From a virus, in IMG/VR virus record IMGVR_UViG_3300009537_000202, positions 1-21,966 of that record: a stretch of DNA of 21,966 nucleotides, one strand, 5' to 3'. Made by a program: the position numbers and the translations under genes. The notes under the pieces are model-generated. The model was not told the origin of the DNA, did no database searches, and was given only the letters and a program-made list of their open reading frames with translations. Below are positions 4,792 through 18,501 of this stretch, piece by piece (the first letter of the stretch is position 1; the number at the start of each line of letters is the position of its first letter).

Positions 4792-5300
4792 GGAAGTTCG
4801 ACGCACTCCGCACGTGGGAGTCGGACACGATAGCCGACATCGAGGCTCGTGGCCTCGACTGGGGGATCCGTGTCAACGACCGGTGCTTCAACCTCGGAAC
4901 GAACCGCCTGTACTACTGCACGGCCGTTGTCGCCACTACGAGCACATGGGCCCTGTGGCCTGGAGGGATGCCCACTCCGCCCACCCTGGATGCTGTGATC
5001 CGTGGGGATGGAACGAACTGGGTGACTGAGGATGACTGGCTAATCGACTCAAGCGGACAGGCATCCGGCGCCAGCTTGACCGTCACTGGGGTGGCCAGAG
5101 GCGGGACCCTCAGAGTTGACGACGACCTCGGTGGAGTGGCCGACACTATCTCGATCACCAATGCGTACCAACTTGTCGACACCGGGACCGTCACCGTGGT
5201 CGACACGTCGAACGGCATGACCTGCGAGGGATACGTCAAGATCTACGTGGATGGGGACGAAAAGTGGATTGCGTACTTCGACGAGGGGATTGGCGTGTGA
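4773..5300 (+). CDS. Putative structural protein, beta-rich (175 residues)
   Basis: The ATG lies inside the end of the previous gene, after CAGGAGGTC, an excellent ribosome site that decides this start. The N-terminus is helical and charged (KFDALRTWESDTIADIEARG). The rest is beta-rich with Gly/Thr/Asp turns (GASLTVTGVARGGTLRVDDD and GTVTVVDTSNG), typical of phage virion accessory proteins. No enzyme motif is visible. The stop overlaps the GTG of the large terminase (GTGA). Together with the previous gene it may encode a decoration or fibre component, but no homologue is recognised. Confidence 0.75.
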   Translation: MGAKSVRKFDALRTWESDTIADIEARGLDWGIRVNDRCFNLGTNRLYYCTAVVATTSTWALWPGGMPTPPTLDAVIRGDGTNWVTEDDWLIDSSGQASGASLTVTGVARGGTLRVDDDLGGVADTISITNAYQLVDTGTVTVVDTSNGMTCEGYVKIYVDGDEKWIAYFDEGIGV

Positions 5301-7798
5301 TCGAGCCAGGGTCCCTGTACACGCCCTCCCCGTGGGGGCACGAGTTCCACAACCTCCACCACCGGGAGGCGCTTGGGGCAGGGTCGGCGGGTCCCGGAAA
5401 GTCACTGGTCCTGCTGTGGGACCCGATCTACCAAGCCCTGGAGGAGTCTCGCCGCTGTGACCCGGCCGAGAATCACCCCTTCCCGCTGGAGCCCGGGACC
5501 TCCGTGGGCTGGGCGCTCCACCTCCGCCGGATCATGCCGTCCTTGCAGCACACCCTCCAGCGAGCTCACCGGGTGTTCCCGAAGATCGACAGGGGCTGCA
5601 AGTGGGAGGCCTCCACGAACACCTACGTCTTCTCCAGCGGCTACCGGTACCAGTTCGGCCACTGCAAGGACAAGGACTCCTGGATGCAGTATCACTCGGC
5701 GGAATACTGCATGGCCAAGGGCGAACGAGTGGTGATGGGGGACAACAGCCTCAAGGCCATCGAGGAGATACAGGTAGGCGATGCTGTGATGACGCTGGAT
5801 GGTCCTCGGCGAGTCACCCACACCTACGCTACTGGGAGGAAACCCTGCGTTTCTTCGACCATTCAATACCGCGGCGAGATCGTTGGAACGCACGTATTTC
5901 CGACCACTCACCCGGTTCTTCTGTGGCCCATCGACGGATCGCATCTTTCACCGTCTCATGGTGAACACCGTACATCTCAGCGATCTCGGCTGAGCGGGTA
6001 TGTGTGGCAAGACTACGAATCTCTGCTTTTCGAGCGTCCAGAAAGCCCGGTCGTGCGCGCTTCTTCAGTAGTCCAGGGAATCGGTTTCGTAAGGTCTGAT
6101 GGTTCACACCAAGATGTCTTGCGGCTTCCAGCGTTGTCCGTCCCTGTAGTGCTTCACGAACCGACTCTTCTGAGAGCGCTTTCCTCCCGGCGCTTGTCCA
6201 CGGAATCTGGTGGACATCAAGGATCGCCCGAACTGTCAGCTCGGAGACCCCTATCCGGAGTGCCGCTGTTCGGATTGACGTCTGAGGGCATCCCGCCATC
6301 GGCCGAAGAGACGCAGCCAGGTCTTCGCGGTACCGAAGCGACGTGCGCTTGTGGTGCCGCATGTGGTCCGCGTGGGTCCGAAATACCCATAGGTTCACCG
6401 GCTCGTTGTTCTGCTTGTTATCGTCCTCGTGGTGAACGACCTCACCCTCGCGGAGGAGCCGACCCATCCAATGCTCGGCCACAAGGCGATGCTGGGCGTG
6501 GTAGCCCCACTTGTTTGCCCGAGGGTGATTCGGGCACTCCTCCACCACGTAGCCGCCGTGAACGGTGGTCCTACCCTCACTTCTACTCTGGGGAGGCTCG
6601 AGATCGGTCAGAGGCCGTCCGTAGGGGGATTGCGACGCTTTCGTGGTCTGGGTGGGATGAGACATTCGACCTCACTGTGGATGATGCGAACCATTATATA
6701 ACAGAGTTCTCCATCGTGAGCAGCCAGACGCATCTCGGGTTCGATGAGGCCGTAGAGTTTGAGGAGGAGCAGGTGGACCAGATCTCGACCCGGCTCCGGT
6801 CGTCCGACCCCGTCCTGCGCGAGTCTCTGAAGATCCGGATGATGTCCAACCCGGTCATGTCGATCAAGGAGGGGGTGAACATCGCCGTCTCCAATCCTCA
6901 CTGGGTTCGGGAACGATTCGTCGACCCCGCTCCGAAGGGCCGCGTGAACCTGCGCCGCAAAATCATCATGGGGGACGGGTCGACGTACTACCACGAGCGG
7001 ATCTACATCCCCGCCAAGTTGTCCGACAACCCGGATCCGGCCTTTCGGCGGTCCTACGAGGAGACGCTCCGGACCAAGCCGAAGCACATCCAGCAGGCCA
7101 TGCTGGAGGGCAACTGGTATCTCGCCCCCGGGTCGTACTACGGCGACTCCTGGATCGTGGAGATCCACATCGCCAAGACATTCAAGATCCCGCCGGAATG
7201 GCCCCAGTGGAGGAGCATGGACTGGGGGTTCAAGGCGCCCGGGTGTGTCCACTGGTACGCACAGGACCCGGACGGCAACATCTACGTCACCCGCGAACTG
7301 ACGTTCCAGGGCAAGGACGCTGGCCAAGTTGCAGCGGAGATCAAGGACGTGGAGGTGGAGTTGGGCCTGTGGAAGAGTGGCCGGTCTGTGATCGTGGGCC
7401 CCGCTGACACCCAACTCTGGGAGGAACGCGGCGACATCGGGCTGACCAAGGCGCAGGAGTTCATCAAGCGAGGGATCCGGTGGGTGAAGGCCGACAAGCG
7501 CTCCCGGGCCCGCAACGCCCAACTCGTGCTCTCACGGCTCCAGGACCACGATGGCGGCACGACTCGTCCCGGCCTGATGTTCTTCCACACTTGCCGCAAC
7601 GCCCTCCGAACGCTCCCCGTAATCCCGGCTCACCCCAAGCATCCAGAGATGCCGCTTGACGGTGGTGAGGACCACTGGCATGACAGCATCTGCTATGGGG
7701 TTGCGTATGCTTCGGCTGGGAACCTGTCCGCTCCGGACCTGGATGACGACCGAGACGAGTACGACGACCGACCACAACGCCCCAGGTGGGGCTACTGA
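5297..7798 (+). CDS. terL: Terminase large subunit (ATPase-nuclease) interrupted by an intein
   Basis: TerL is the motor that pumps DNA into the prohead and cuts the concatemer. The GTG at 5297 overlaps the previous stop. The 833-residue precursor contains a 340-residue intein (138-477), so the spliced protein should be 493 residues, a normal TerL size. Walker A is GSAGPGKS (29-36). Right after the intein comes THLGFDEA, where Asp483-Glu484 (spliced 143-144) form Walker B. Motifs of the RNase H-like nuclease follow: RSMDWGF (Asp642, spliced 302), VGPADTQLW, and GGEDHWHDSICYGV with the late Asp. Rejoining the exteins gives SAEY-THLGFDEA, a continuous terminase sequence. Correct splicing is probably required for DNA packaging, because the insert splits the ATPase core. 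Confidence 0.92.
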   Translation: MIEPGSLYTPSPWGHEFHNLHHREALGAGSAGPGKSLVLLWDPIYQALEESRRCDPAENHPFPLEPGTSVGWALHLRRIMPSLQHTLQRAHRVFPKIDRGCKWEASTNTYVFSSGYRYQFGHCKDKDSWMQYHSAEYCMAKGERVVMGDNSLKAIEEIQVGDAVMTLDGPRRVTHTYATGRKPCVSSTIQYRGEIVGTHVFPTTHPVLLWPIDGSHLSPSHGEHRTSQRSRLSGYVWQDYESLLFERPESPVVRASSVVQGIGFVRSDGSHQDVLRLPALSVPVVLHEPTLLRALSSRRLSTESGGHQGSPELSARRPLSGVPLFGLTSEGIPPSAEETQPGLRGTEATCACGAACGPRGSEIPIGSPARCSACYRPRGERPHPRGGADPSNARPQGDAGRGSPTCLPEGDSGTPPPRSRRERWSYPHFYSGEARDRSEAVRRGIATLSWSGWDETFDLTVDDANHYITEFSIVSSQTHLGFDEAVEFEEEQVDQISTRLRSSDPVLRESLKIRMMSNPVMSIKEGVNIAVSNPHWVRERFVDPAPKGRVNLRRKIIMGDGSTYYHERIYIPAKLSDNPDPAFRRSYEETLRTKPKHIQQAMLEGNWYLAPGSYYGDSWIVEIHIAKTFKIPPEWPQWRSMDWGFKAPGCVHWYAQDPDGNIYVTRELTFQGKDAGQVAAEIKDVEVELGLWKSGRSVIVGPADTQLWEERGDIGLTKAQEFIKRGIRWVKADKRSRARNAQLVLSRLQDHDGGTTRPGLMFFHTCRNALRTLPVIPAHPKHPEMPLDGGEDHWHDSICYGVAYASAGNLSAPDLDDDRDEYDDRPQRPRWGY
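5829..6665 (-). CDS. HNH homing endonuclease encoded antisense inside the terL intein
   Basis: Such enzymes cut intein-free alleles so that repair copies the intein in. The 278-residue protein is read on the reverse strand from the ATG at 6665. Residues 36-105 form a typical phage HNH_3 domain: HGGYVVEECPNHPRANKWG, then AQHRLVAEHWMGRLL, then VVHHEDDNKQNNEPVNL with the catalytic His78-His79 and Asn87/Asn91, and HADHMRHH at 98-105. Three helix-turn-helix-like segments follow: AALRIGVSELTVRAIL (~134-149), TLEAARHLGVNHQTLRNRF (~178-196) and RSAEIAEMYGVHHETVKDAI (~224-243). These are likely DNA-binding modules. The tail is basic. GAGGT sits 4 bases before the ATG and TATAAT 27 bases before it. The gene lies wholly inside the intein and cannot be translated from the terminase mRNA. 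Confidence 0.87.
   Translation of the reverse strand: MSHPTQTTKASQSPYGRPLTDLEPPQSRSEGRTTVHGGYVVEECPNHPRANKWGYHAQHRLVAEHWMGRLLREGEVVHHEDDNKQNNEPVNLWVFRTHADHMRHHKRTSLRYREDLAASLRPMAGCPQTSIRTAALRIGVSELTVRAILDVHQIPWTSAGRKALSEESVREALQGRTTLEAARHLGVNHQTLRNRFPGLLKKRARPGFLDARKAEIRSLATHTRSAEIAEMYGVHHETVKDAIRRWATEEPGEWSEIRAFQRSRRGIEWSKKRRVSSQ
6669..6673 (-). promoter_or_regulatory. Ribosome binding site GAGGT of the antisense endonuclease
   Basis: The minus strand reads GAGGTCGA-ATG, with GAGG four bases before the endonuclease start. On the sense strand the same bases encode the Asp-Leu-Thr part of intein block F. This site supports the choice of the ATG at 6665 and shows that the gene has its own translation signal. 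Confidence 0.6.
6693..6698 (-). promoter_or_regulatory. Candidate -10 box (TATAAT) for the antisense endonuclease
   Basis: A perfect TATAAT on the minus strand ends 27 bases before the endonuclease ATG, in otherwise GC-rich DNA. It is the reverse complement of part of the sense codons for the block F residues H-Y-I. The best -35 candidate at an 18-base spacer is TGCTCA (three of six consensus bases), so the promoter is only partly consensus. If used, the transcript would have a leader of about 20 bases. Confidence 0.5.
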
Positions 7799-13925: not shown

Positions 13926-14894
13926 ATGAGCACTGTTCCCAACGCCAGAGGCACACGCCTCTTCGACGGCCTGCCCCGCGTTGGGGTGGGAGCCGGGATC
14001 AAGACCACCTTCGGCACCCTGCTTCCACCTGACGGCGAGGTGGTGGCGTACGTGGACAGCAACGGTGTCCAGGACGGCGACGACCATGCGATCAAGGACA
14101 TGGTTGTCCTGACCCTCGCGGCTGCCCTGAATCGCTGCCGCGCCGGCAAGAACGACATCATCGTGGTCCGGCCCGGACATGCGGAGAATGTCGCCTTGAC
14201 CACGGACTTGGACAATCTGGTCGCCGGGACCCGGATCGTCGGGTACGGCCACGGGGCGAACATGCCCACATTCACCTGGACGGCGACGACCAGCCAGTGG
14301 GCCATCGACAACGCTGACGTCCAGATCTCCGGGCTGCGCCTGGCGATCTCTGGGGCCGTCGTGGTCAAGGGGATCGTGATTACCGCAGCGGACTGCGTGA
14401 TCTCGGACTGCGAGATCGTCCATGCGACCGGGGCCTCCAACAAGGCGACGATCGCCATCGAGGTCGGCTCTGCGGGCCTGGACTGCACGATTGCTGGATG
14501 CAGGATCCGCGGGACCAAGACCCATAACTCCACCGACGTGATCAAGCTCGTGGGCGGCACGGTGCCGTCTGGCTTCCGGTTCATCGGGAACGAGTGGATC
14601 GGCTCGGCGACGGCGGCCAATGGTGTCGTACACATCACGGTGGCAGCCCTGGACTGCGTCATTGCGAACAACATGCTGTACAACACGCACACGAGCTCGA
14701 CCTCGTGCGTGACCGTGGACAACGTGGCTGCTGACGGCATCCTCGCCTACAACACGTACTGCACCATGAACGACGGGACCGCGACGGCTCAGGGCGCAGT
14801 CCTGGGCGCGGCTGCGCTGTTCAAGACGGTGGAGTGCTACTCGGTCGACGAGCCGATCAAGTCCGGGATCCTGACTCCGGCGGCGGGAACATAG
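13926..14894 (+). CDS. Beta-helix virion protein, paralogue 1
   Basis: The 322-residue protein starts 3 bases after the capsid gene, with GGAGG in front. After a short N-terminus it has a series of short strands with regular spacing, typical of a right-handed parallel beta-helix: DIIVVRPGHAE (77-87), GTRIVGYG, QISGLRLAISGAVVVKG, CVISDCEIVHATG, CTIAGCRIRG, RFIGNEWIG and CVIANNMLYNT. It shares the DII-V-x-P-GH-x-E motif and the ending K-S-G-I-L-x-P-A with the next gene, and a similar motif with the gene at 17668. No catalytic residues are apparent. It is probably a head fibre or decoration protein, inferred from position next to the capsid gene. Confidence 0.75.
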   Translation: MSTVPNARGTRLFDGLPRVGVGAGIKTTFGTLLPPDGEVVAYVDSNGVQDGDDHAIKDMVVLTLAAALNRCRAGKNDIIVVRPGHAENVALTTDLDNLVAGTRIVGYGHGANMPTFTWTATTSQWAIDNADVQISGLRLAISGAVVVKGIVITAADCVISDCEIVHATGASNKATIAIEVGSAGLDCTIAGCRIRGTKTHNSTDVIKLVGGTVPSGFRFIGNEWIGSATAANGVVHITVAALDCVIANNMLYNTHTSSTSCVTVDNVAADGILAYNTYCTMNDGTATAQGAVLGAAALFKTVECYSVDEPIKSGILTPAAGT

Positions 14895-14903
14895 GAGAAC
14901 ACC

Positions 14904-15833
14904 ATGACCTGGCAGCAAGACGTCGCTTTCGCAAACGCAGTCGCCAACGGGCAGACGCCCCACGGCTATGTCGTCTCCGCCTACGTGCGCTCCACCGGGC
15001 AGCAGACGAACGACCCGGCCGCTGTCACGAGCAGCTTCTACTCCAGCATCTCCACGGCGATTGCCGCGTCCACCTCTGGGCGGGACATCATCGTGGTTCT
15101 GCCGGGGCACAGCGAGGCTGTGGGCACTACCCTGTTCACCAGCATCACTGCCGGGACGAAGATCATCGGAGCCGGCTCGCCGGACCAGGATGACGCTCCG
15201 ACGCTCAACTGGAGCACCGCGAGCGACAACCTGGACATGGATGTGAAGAACATCATGATCGCCAACCTCCGCTTGAACGCGGACGCGAACGACGTCACGG
15301 AGGCGATCTCCGTCTCCAAGGCGGGTTGCAAGATCATCGGATGCTACGTGGATGCTGGCATCGCTACCGGCACGGATATCCTGTCGCTCATCGACATCGA
15401 GACCGGCGGGGAAGACTGCGTCATCGCCGGGAACACGATCCGGTGTACCGCTGGTGGAGCCACCTTCATGGTCTCCCTGGCGGCCACGGTCGACAATCCA
15501 CAGATCTGCGACAACCGGATCTTCGGAACCTCGAACAGCACCACGGTCGGGCTCATCCGGCTCACGGCTGCGGCCACGAACATCCAGATCTCCGGCAACG
15601 TCATCGACCAGCAGTACGCTGCAAGCACGGCGGCGATCTCCATGGCGGACGTCGCTGCCACGGGTGTCTGCTACGACAACTACGTTGGGACCATCGCGAA
15701 CGCCGCGAGTCCAGCCACCGCCGGCATCGTCATTGCGGGTTCCACGAACCTGCTGGTCCACTTCTTCAACAACTACTCCTCGGACGGCCTCAAGAGTACC
15801 TCCGGGATCCTTGCCCCGGCGGTCACCTCCTAG
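14904..15833 (+). CDS. Beta-helix virion protein, paralogue 2
   Basis: This 309-residue protein has the same plan as the previous gene: DIIVVLPGHSE (61-71), GTKIIGAG, IANLRLNADANDVTEAISV, CKIIGCYVDAG, CVIAGNTIRCTAG, QICDNRIFGT, IQISGNVIDQQ and the same ending (STSGILAPA). The gene pair therefore looks like a tandem duplication that has since diverged. At DNA level GACATCATCGTGGT is shared around the motif. The ribosome site is TAGGAGA. Likely a surface protein or fibre with a beta-helix shaft. No lyase active site is visible. Confidence 0.75.
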   Translation: MTWQQDVAFANAVANGQTPHGYVVSAYVRSTGQQTNDPAAVTSSFYSSISTAIAASTSGRDIIVVLPGHSEAVGTTLFTSITAGTKIIGAGSPDQDDAPTLNWSTASDNLDMDVKNIMIANLRLNADANDVTEAISVSKAGCKIIGCYVDAGIATGTDILSLIDIETGGEDCVIAGNTIRCTAGGATFMVSLAATVDNPQICDNRIFGTSNSTTVGLIRLTAAATNIQISGNVIDQQYAASTAAISMADVAATGVCYDNYVGTIANAASPATAGIVIAGSTNLLVHFFNNYSSDGLKSTSGILAPAVTS

Positions 15834-16953: not shown

Positions 16954-17675
16954 CCGTCTCGACCTCCATCGGGCGGGAGTGGACCGTCAACAAGATCGTC
17001 GACCGGGCCTACAAGTTCGCCGGGCTCGTCGAGGTGTCGTCCAACGCCAACAGCGCTCAGTTGCGCGGCGGACGAGCTCTGCTCGAGGACATACTGGACT
17101 CCCTGCCGACCGTGTCGAATCAGGCTCGGGCCACCACGTTCGACGAGGTGACGATCACCGCGGCACAGGTGACGGCGGAGACCTACAAGTTCGACCTGGG
17201 TGCCAACACCTTGGATATTCTCGACCCCTGCATGTACATCCCGGCGTCCGAGACCGACACGGATCGGGCCAGCGGCGAGACGATCATGCGCCAGATCTCC
17301 CAGGTGGAGTGGCACCAGTACGGCGCCAAGGATGCCACTGGGAACCCGACGCGGTTCTACGCCCACCGGGAGGGGAACACGGTCCAGGCATGGGTCTGGC
17401 CGATCCCAGATGAGGCGGGGACGATGCGGTTCCGGGTGACCCGGAAGTTGGCCGACGTGGACGACGGCAACGCCACCGTGGATCTCCAGACCTACTGGAT
17501 GGACTTCCTGAAGAAGCGGCTCGCGGCCGACTTGGCCCAGGCCTCCTCGCTGAGCATCCAGAAGGTCTCGTACCTGGAGATGCAGGCCCACCGGGCGTTG
17601 AACGCTGCCCGTGGTATGGCCAACGAGCGGCCGGGCTTCCAGATGTACACCTCTCACAAGGGACCCTATGGCTGA
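16950..17675 (+). CDS. Head-to-tail adaptor, P22 gp4-like
   Basis: The 241-residue protein resembles the podoviral gp4/gp11-type adaptor that sits under the portal and joins the tail hub. Visible features are an N-terminal helical part with a long helix (RGGRALLEDILDSLP), a central beta part (VTITAAQVTAETYKFDLG), and the family-like segment NPTRFYAHREGNTVQAWVWP (132-151), then PDEAGTMRFRVTRKLADVDD and an ending helix bundle (YWMDFLKKRLAADLAQ). This 'PTRF...LxLWPxPDxxxTLRxxxxRxLxxV' string is common to such adaptors. The GTG start overlaps the previous stop. The stop lies 5 bases inside the next gene. DNA stabilisation after packaging is the inferred role. Confidence 0.65.
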   Translation: MTVSTSIGREWTVNKIVDRAYKFAGLVEVSSNANSAQLRGGRALLEDILDSLPTVSNQARATTFDEVTITAAQVTAETYKFDLGANTLDILDPCMYIPASETDTDRASGETIMRQISQVEWHQYGAKDATGNPTRFYAHREGNTVQAWVWPIPDEAGTMRFRVTRKLADVDDGNATVDLQTYWMDFLKKRLAADLAQASSLSIQKVSYLEMQAHRALNAARGMANERPGFQMYTSHKGPYG

Positions 17676-18501
17676 CACACTCACCAACGGCTACGGCGGT
17701 ACAACCGGGGATTCCCTGGTCACCCGCAAGCCCATCGTCCAGTCTGGGTCCACCTACTACGTGGACGTGACCACGGGGAACGCGGCCTACACCGGGCTGG
17801 ACCGGAAGATGCCGCTTGCGGCCCTGTCCGCTGCGGTAGCTGCTGCCTCCGCGGGGGACACGATCATCATGCTGGATGGCCACACCGAGACGATCTCGGC
17901 GGCCCTGGCGATCTCCGCCCAGTTGACGATCATCGGAGAGGGCTCCTCCTCTGGGGTTCCCACGGTCATCCTGACGCTGAATCACGCCACGGCAGACATC
18001 TTCACGGTGTCGGCCCACAACTGCCAGTTCCGGAACATCAAGATCGCCGTCCCGGCACAGGCGACCACGGGGTCCATGTTCACGCTCTCGGGCGACGGCG
18101 GGCTGCTGGACAACGTCCACATCGACGTGAATGACGAGAACAACGCCAACGCGGTGGCCTTCGCAGCCGGCGCGAATCACTGGTTTTTCCGCAACTGCAC
18201 CTTCACCTCGGCCGAGACCGATACCACCTCCACCGCCAAGCCCTACCCGCCGATCCTGATCGGTGGGGACATCAGCGGCCTCCGGATGGAGGGGTGTGTG
18301 CTCGACGGTGGAGCGGAGGGGTTTGAGGACGGGTCCAGCAACAACTGGGCGCTGGATGGCTCCGCGTTCGACATCACCTCCGGGATGGCCATCGAGAACC
18401 TCTCCTTGCTCCGCGGGGCGATCGTGAAGCTCAAGGGGACCAGCACGGTGGGCTACATCAACGTCCAGACCTCTTCTGGTAGCGCAGGAGTGTACTGGTA
18501 A
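17668..18501 (+). CDS. Beta-helix virion protein, paralogue 3
   Basis: The ATG at 17668 overlaps the end of the adaptor gene. The 277-residue protein shares the plan of the two beta-helix genes after the capsid: a strand with YYVDVTTGN, the motif DTIIMLDGHTE (64-74), a QLTIIGEG turn, then stacked short strands (CQFRNIKIAV, GLLDNVHIDVND, WFFRNCTFTSAE, GLRMEGCVLDGG). It has no visible lyase active site. Because it sits between the adaptor and tailspike genes, it may be a tail-associated relative of the head proteins. The stop overlaps the next ATG (TAATG). Confidence 0.7.
   Translation: MADTLTNGYGGTTGDSLVTRKPIVQSGSTYYVDVTTGNAAYTGLDRKMPLAALSAAVAAASAGDTIIMLDGHTETISAALAISAQLTIIGEGSSSGVPTVILTLNHATADIFTVSAHNCQFRNIKIAVPAQATTGSMFTLSGDGGLLDNVHIDVNDENNANAVAFAAGANHWFFRNCTFTSAETDTTSTAKPYPPILIGGDISGLRMEGCVLDGGAEGFEDGSSNNWALDGSAFDITSGMAIENLSLLRGAIVKLKGTSTVGYINVQTSSGSAGVYW

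Follow-up and report, generated by a model that had tools for sequence, protein, structure and literature searches.

How can an intein host a homing endonuclease that does not share its reading frame? The question is raised by the gene for the terminase large subunit (terL; protein TerL) in a virus record of IMG/VR, IMGVR_UViG_3300009537_000202, of which we analysed 21,966 nt (the window; GC content 64%). An insert in this gene carries the splicing blocks of an intein in sense, and its opposite strand encodes an endonuclease of the HNH_3 family (HNH below). Judged from sequence comparison and modelling, the insert is very probably a mobile TerL intein with a homing endonuclease that does not belong to the intein protein and is encoded by a gene of its own in antisense. 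In ordinary inteins the endonuclease, of the LAGLIDADG or HNH type, is fused in frame to the splicing domain, so that synthesis of the nuclease is tied to that of the host protein. By the definitions tested the insert is an intein and the reverse open reading frame (ORF) an HNH_3 gene, the sole feature missing being an endonuclease in frame. A preliminary description of the locus knew of no described intein of this design, and the searchable literature yielded no intein with an antisense endonuclease.

The insert and its splicing blocks

The host gene is identified by PHROG_2 (E 1e-16) and PHROG_979 (E 2e-14), both matching the plus strand frame 5264-7798. The likely start of TerL is GTG 5297, which overlaps the stop codon of the upstream gene; TerL homologues align from about residue 12 onward when the frame is read from GTG 5264. 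The predicted product is a precursor of about 833 amino acids (aa), or about 493 aa with the intein removed. The insert corresponds to residues 149-488 of the long frame, exactly 340 codons within one open sense frame, and lies in the Walker B motif (AEY^THLGFDEA). It begins with Cys and ends with SSQ, followed by Thr. An empty site, without gap across the junction, is found by alignment in 27 intein-free TerL relatives, and in intein-free relatives of about 40-56% identity the residue after the insertion site is always Thr, Ser or Cys. The limits proposed in the preliminary description proved exact to the base, and the blocks A, B, F and G, which it had placed in sense in the terminase frame, lie in the TerL frame with invariant residues, profile and model in agreement (Table 1).

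The search of the forward translation against intein families, which had been proposed as a check, succeeded in part. Pfam Hom_end_hint matched block A at E 6e-6, under the gathering cut-off of the family, and the TIGR01443 intein_Cterm model matched blocks F/G (FDLTVDDANHYIT..IVSSQ|T) at only E 0.11 as a single sequence, below the cut-off. The weak single-sequence scores were settled by profile and fold searches. A profile of 24 intein members matched PI-SceI at E 4e-6. The AlphaFold model of the intein has predicted local distance difference test values (pLDDT) above 95 in blocks A/B, of about 93-96 at the F/G end and below 50 at residues 169-283, and in a Foldseek search of the PDB all of its top 20 matches were inteins (best E 3e-5), with TM-scores by target of up to 0.74 (NpuDnaB mini-intein).

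An alignment of 24 homologues has no variation at C1, His68, Asp321 and His329, and block B shows the TxxH motif as PTTH (in PTTHPVLL, with His68). Among the 36 distinct Walker B inserts described below, C1, the class 1 Hint nucleophile, is present in every one, and 35 inserts end with Asn or Gln followed by Cys, Ser or Thr (Q|T in the window). A penultimate His is lacking in the window (SSQ) and present in most relatives inserted at Walker A (HHN). Model and alignments support a predicted Hint fold, formed by blocks A-B and F-G, as in class 1 inteins. The exception at the insert end, L135 (120-3431, +), has an intact HNH and an unrecognisable block G end (..QFDSRQER) and is possibly a decaying or mis-assembled intein.

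Table 1. Features of terL, its insert and the antisense gene (positions in the window)
Feature	Position	Strand	Basis
terL precursor	5297..7798	+	PHROG_2, PHROG_979 terminase large subunit; open frame from GTG 5264
Intein, 340 aa, C1...Q340, +1 residue Thr	5708..6727	+	Translation, homologue alignments, profile, model, empty sites
Intein block A region (C1, MAKGERVVMGDNSLKAIEEIQVGDAVMT)	5708..5794	+	Pfam Hom_end_hint on TerL ORF residues 149-186; C1 invariant
Intein block B (GTHVFPTTHPVLL; His68 at 5909-5911)	5885..5926	+	His68 invariant in 24 homologues; translation
Sense linker, blocks B to F	5927..6651	+	Open, without known domain
Intein block F (ETFDLTVDDANHYITEF; Asp321, His329)	6656..6703	+	Asp321, His329 invariant in 24 homologues
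Intein block G (SIVSSQ), then extein Thr+1	6710..6727	+	Weak TIGR01443 match; comparison of inserts
HNH_3 endonuclease gene, 278 aa, ATG at 6665	5829..6665	-	Pfam, PHROG, homologues, AlphaFold
HNH_3 core, HNH residues 58-103	6357..6494	-	Pfam; residues invariant in 20 homologues
Helix-turn-helix (HTH) segment, HNH residues 101-150	6216..6365	-	Pfam HTH_Tnp_ISL3
HTH segment, HNH residues 168-193	6087..6164	-	Pfam HTH_28
HTH segment, HNH residues 226-248	5922..5990	-	Pfam HTH_23
Shine-Dalgarno-like GTGAGGTC, 2 bases before HNH ATG	6668..6675	-	Octamer shared with relatives at equal distance
-10-like TATAAT, antisense of block F 'HYI'	6693..6698	-	Comparison with long-form relatives

The antisense gene and selection on both strands

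The reverse strand had been read in the preliminary description as a full HNH_3 endonuclease with three HTH-like segments, and the sense frame between blocks B and F as free of nuclease motifs. Family searches bear this out: the reverse ORF matched HNH_3 (E 3e-7), the HNH family PHROG_59 (E 6e-20) and several HTH families in three stretches, and nuclease families gave zero matches to the sense linker, leaving no in-frame endonuclease. The HNH_3 domain was found in 20/20 HNH homologues, in all of which His78, His79, Asn91 and His101 are invariant. The AlphaFold model of the HNH protein has a mean pLDDT of 83.8, and its best match among solved structures, a weak and non-significant similarity, is I-HmuI. 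Block B sits opposite the C-terminal tail of the antisense gene.

To judge from codon statistics, both the sense frame and the HNH frame are under selection. When synonymous codons were permuted within each HNH gene, 185 stops were expected in the sense linkers of the 36 loci and 0 were observed; in the window alone the mean was 5.2 stops, and 0/1000 shuffles were stop-free. The converse shuffle of the sense codons gave 135 expected antisense stops, again with 0 observed. Loci retrieved by HNH alone, with the sense frame disregarded, likewise had 0 sense stops. In a control of 33 related HNH genes that lack an open antisense frame, stops occurred at about the shuffled rate; this group is defined by the presence of stops, and what informs is the agreement of its counts with the null, not their excess over zero. 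As both frames are kept in relatives with TerL exteins only about 40-55% identical and no shuffle of the window's HNH gene was stop-free, a chance arrangement is excluded.

The distribution of differences among eight relatives of the window's group points the same way. In the linker the differences at antisense codon positions 1/2/3 are 0.35/0.34/0.55, which reads as a gene on the reverse strand. At the ends of the intein the differences by sense position are 0.36/0.30/0.60 (first 40 codons) and 0.24/0.25/0.59 (last 18 codons), which reads as a forward gene, the splicing blocks following the sense frame. Binned variability indicates constraint in both frames at residues 40-75 and 284-320, partly in both at 96-119 and 141-168, and solely in the reverse frame at 169-283, in agreement with a model in which about 96-119 and 141-168 are partly folded and 169-283 disordered. 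The sense linker does not look fully inert on this evidence, residues of about 96-119 and 141-168 appearing dually constrained and 169-283 passive.

Relatives and candidate expression signals

To collect relatives, both the HNH and the intein were used as queries against IMG/VR, and the HNH was used in one scan of GTDB genomes; a six-frame profile search of the matches and de-duplication followed. In the 36 distinct TerL inserts so obtained, of 252-387 aa and GC content 0.40-0.63, a single sense ORF holds blocks A/B and F/G, and the interval between the two block pairs encodes an HNH on the opposite strand; one of the 36 (L140) is from a Verrucomicrobiota contig. Most of the remaining high-scoring HNH loci are also antisense in TerL ORFs, mostly in inteins at Walker A, which have canonical ...HHN|S/T ends and scored above the cut-off of Pfam Intein_splicing in 4/10 tested. 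Inspection added 24 loci, including a near-duplicate (L057) and an extra Walker B case (L044), with L044 and L098 cut off at contig ends. Taken together there are about 60 distinct loci, of which about 37 use Walker B and about 23 Walker A. Within Walker B the insertion point is either ...Y^TxxGFDE, the one of the window, or ...F^CGFDE, two residues further on (L007). The codon phase is identical at all of the approximately 60 loci, with HNH position 1 opposite sense position 1; this single fixed phase is observed though other phases seem possible.

The search for further TerL inteins with a reverse HNH, also proposed beforehand, thus returned about 60 loci and one relative without HNH. The case that had been named as refuting the design, a broken reverse ORF opposite a sense linker conserved as protein, occurred in 0 of about 60 relatives. 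The single HNH-less relative, L136 (6001-6441, +), is a 147-aa mini-intein at a Walker B position of TerL, with splicing blocks at a site neighbouring that of the window and, unlike the window, with neither linker nor HNH.

Three further TerL ORFs are unusually built. L058 (3170-6751, -; 1194 aa) apparently contains two inteins, one with an antisense HNH near Walker A and the second with an in-frame LAGLIDADG_3 domain. L039 (3947-8323, -; 1459 aa) and L052 (4847-8428, -; 1194 aa) are long TerL ORFs, the N-terminal region of which matches helicase-loader, primase and other TerL families.

Candidate signals for the expression of HNH lie in the DNA of the last splicing blocks. The Shine-Dalgarno-like octamer is the antisense of the block F codons 'DLT', and the arrangement GTGAGGTC-N2-ATG is common to seven loci (the window, L004, L005, L006, L008, L038 and L114), L115 deviating at this position (GTCAGATC). 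TATAAT or TATAGT stands at the equivalent place in the long-form relatives, L115 excepted (TGTAGT), and a near-consensus -35 box is found within block G in L139 (TTGACA-N16-TATAAT) and L008 (TTGACG-N16-TATAAT). The summed promoter score was 333, as compared with a mean of 302 and a maximum of 317 in 500 synonymous recodings by extein codon usage. The Tyr of block F is encoded by TAT in 24/33 cases, and Tyr in the exteins in 235/639. From these comparisons an antisense promoter for HNH is likely; we grade it no higher because the block F protein motif predisposes to -10-like boxes, the AT content of the inteins exceeds that of their hosts and the -35 box of the window itself is poor. The conserved ribosome-binding site and the promoter-like boxes point toward a separate expression of HNH, which may alter its timing.

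We consider it an even question whether these loci represent a distinct and widespread class of two-strand inteins in phage terminase genes, in which the DNA of blocks F/G would also serve an antisense homing endonuclease gene as its promoter and ribosome-binding site, with one fixed phase and at least three insertion sites.

Alternative explanations and known systems

The case for mobility is circumstantial: related TerL have both occupied and empty sites, and the HNH family is common to several TerL sites. Both frames might be real in an element that is now immobile, with the HNH serving another role or kept by the constraint of the sense frame. HNH and extein distances are correlated (Spearman 0.58), which makes vertical descent substantial; all distance correlations are significant and the HNH follows the exteins at least as closely as it follows the splicing blocks, so that the correlations alone do not demonstrate mobility as a unit. 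An immobile element is nevertheless unlikely, since the catalytic residues of the HNH are invariant in 20 homologues, the HNH identity is well above that of the exteins in some pairs (62% for L140 and L054, with exteins about 25% identical) and the site is empty in many close relatives.

The insert could also be no intein, and instead an inverted mobile HNH gene or intron with a sense frame open by accident or tolerated as a loop. The sub-threshold intein scores of the window leave some room for this, and there is a precedent in the ShiLan domain and the Pacc40 insertion of actinobacteriophage DNA methylases, where an HNH is encoded in an alternative frame and no splicing domain was detected, the ShiLan insert being proposed to be tolerated as a loop (PMC11855218). 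Common to both is a phage gene with an in-frame insertion that lacks stops and conceals an HNH in another frame; the ShiLan HNH, though, is on the same strand and without splicing blocks, whereas that of the window is antisense, with clear blocks and a ribosome-binding site, and an insertion of the ShiLan type was rejected for the window on strand and blocks. We think a non-intein very unlikely: the splicing blocks are conserved with a sense-type codon variability, profile and model both lead to inteins with their four invariant residues, 35/36 inserts end as inteins do, sense stops are strongly avoided, and the Walker A relatives have canonical ends and Intein_splicing matches, some above cut-off.

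The position of the HNH gene inside terL might suggest a packaging partner of TerL, as in some cos phages, instead of a homing enzyme. HNH proteins encoded beside terminase genes are required for packaging in HK97-like phages. Against this, close intein-free TerL relatives (L009-L033) are without any relative of this HNH in the flanks examined, so the HNH is not required by this type of TerL; moreover, the HNH_3 core with its HTH array, the PHROG_59 match and the weak similarity to I-HmuI correspond to the architecture of phage homing endonucleases, and the HNH family is shared with unrelated TerL sites. A packaging role is highly improbable on these grounds. A spurious antisense ORF opposite an ordinary intein with a decayed endonuclease, long antisense ORFs being common in DNA of 64% GC, is practically negligible and refuted by the conservation of the reverse frame, which has strong HNH and HTH family matches, invariant catalytic residues and linker variation typical of reverse-frame coding DNA, and persists at about 60 loci, some of them AT-richer (GC 0.40-0.51).

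Several points speak against a mobile intein with an antisense endonuclease. In the window, the Hom_end_hint match stays under its cut-off, block G is atypical (penultimate Ser, terminal Gln), the -35 box is poor and a strict promoter scan returned zero sites. The stop test treats the loci as independent despite their shared ancestry, and for this reason the product of its probabilities is not to be taken literally. The tree of the HNH core is too poorly resolved to count the origins of the arrangement. All cases come from metagenome assemblies or metagenome-assembled genomes, and tblastn against 50,697 phage records, with the HNH, a Walker A HNH and three intein-bearing TerL as queries, found no antisense HNH intein in isolated phages. 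The matches comprised free-standing HNHs, TerL without an intein and two TerL inteins of the ordinary LAGLIDADG kind; matches in Arthrobacter and human-gut TerL that seemingly covered intein residues proved intein-free.

The two TerL inteins of isolated phages, from CL131 and Thiohalocapsa phage LS06-2018-MD04, have on inspection an in-frame LAGLIDADG endonuclease and are inserted at Walker A. The first is in the TerL of Aphanizomenon phage CL131 (L166, MG209611.1, 812-3619) and the second in that of the Thiohalocapsa phage (L168, OP947166.1, 941-3799), where the record's annotation as 'DarB-like antirestriction' is probably a misannotation. Canonical large inteins of the PI-SceI type share with the window the Hint blocks A/B and F/G, the exact insertion into a conserved active-site motif and an endonuclease between blocks B and F; theirs is in the same reading frame, whereas that of the window has a start codon of its own on the opposite strand. 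I-HmuI and the HNH_3/NUMOD homing endonucleases of phages likewise have an HNH_3 core followed by helix-turn-helix DNA-binding segments, and I-HmuI, unlike the HNH of the window, is encoded on the sense strand of its group I intron. Homing endonuclease genes in antisense are known from group I introns of nuclear genes (I-DsqI in Didymium squamulosum L2066, and D. iridis S956-2), where an own promoter is thought to drive expression (PMC9548176). They resemble the window in having the gene on the opposite strand of a self-splicing element, but these are RNA introns in rDNA, whose opposite strand need not encode protein, whereas that of the window must stay a readable frame.

Elsewhere in the window, the ORFs 13926-14894, 14904-15833 and 17611-18501 (+) share the motif 'D.II.(V/L)(R/L/D)(P/D)GH.E' and are, from their sequence, probably paralogous beta-helix-type virion proteins.

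In the reading that we prefer, a mobile intein with an antisense endonuclease, the sense strand would be translated across the entire insert into a single TerL precursor, as selection on the sense frame supports, and the intein would then excise itself to give a functional TerL. The reverse strand would be transcribed and translated independently, probably by way of signals in the antisense of blocks F and G. Its HNH_3-HTH protein, to judge from the family and the precise occupancy of the site, may cut intein-free terL alleles at Walker B, and repair of the cut gene would copy the intein in. One stretch of DNA would hold two selected codes, a stop-free sense frame with splicing blocks and an HNH protein.

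If this is true, the nuclease could be made on its own schedule, for example ahead of the late packaging genes, and a mini-intein could be colonised by an endonuclease gene in a frame other than its own, the price being that hundreds of codons must stay free of stops on either strand. The locus would be a clear natural example of antisense overlap under selection, and the effect of each frame could be measured in it. The usual search for an in-frame endonuclease would overlook such inteins and count them as large inteins with an unknown linker.

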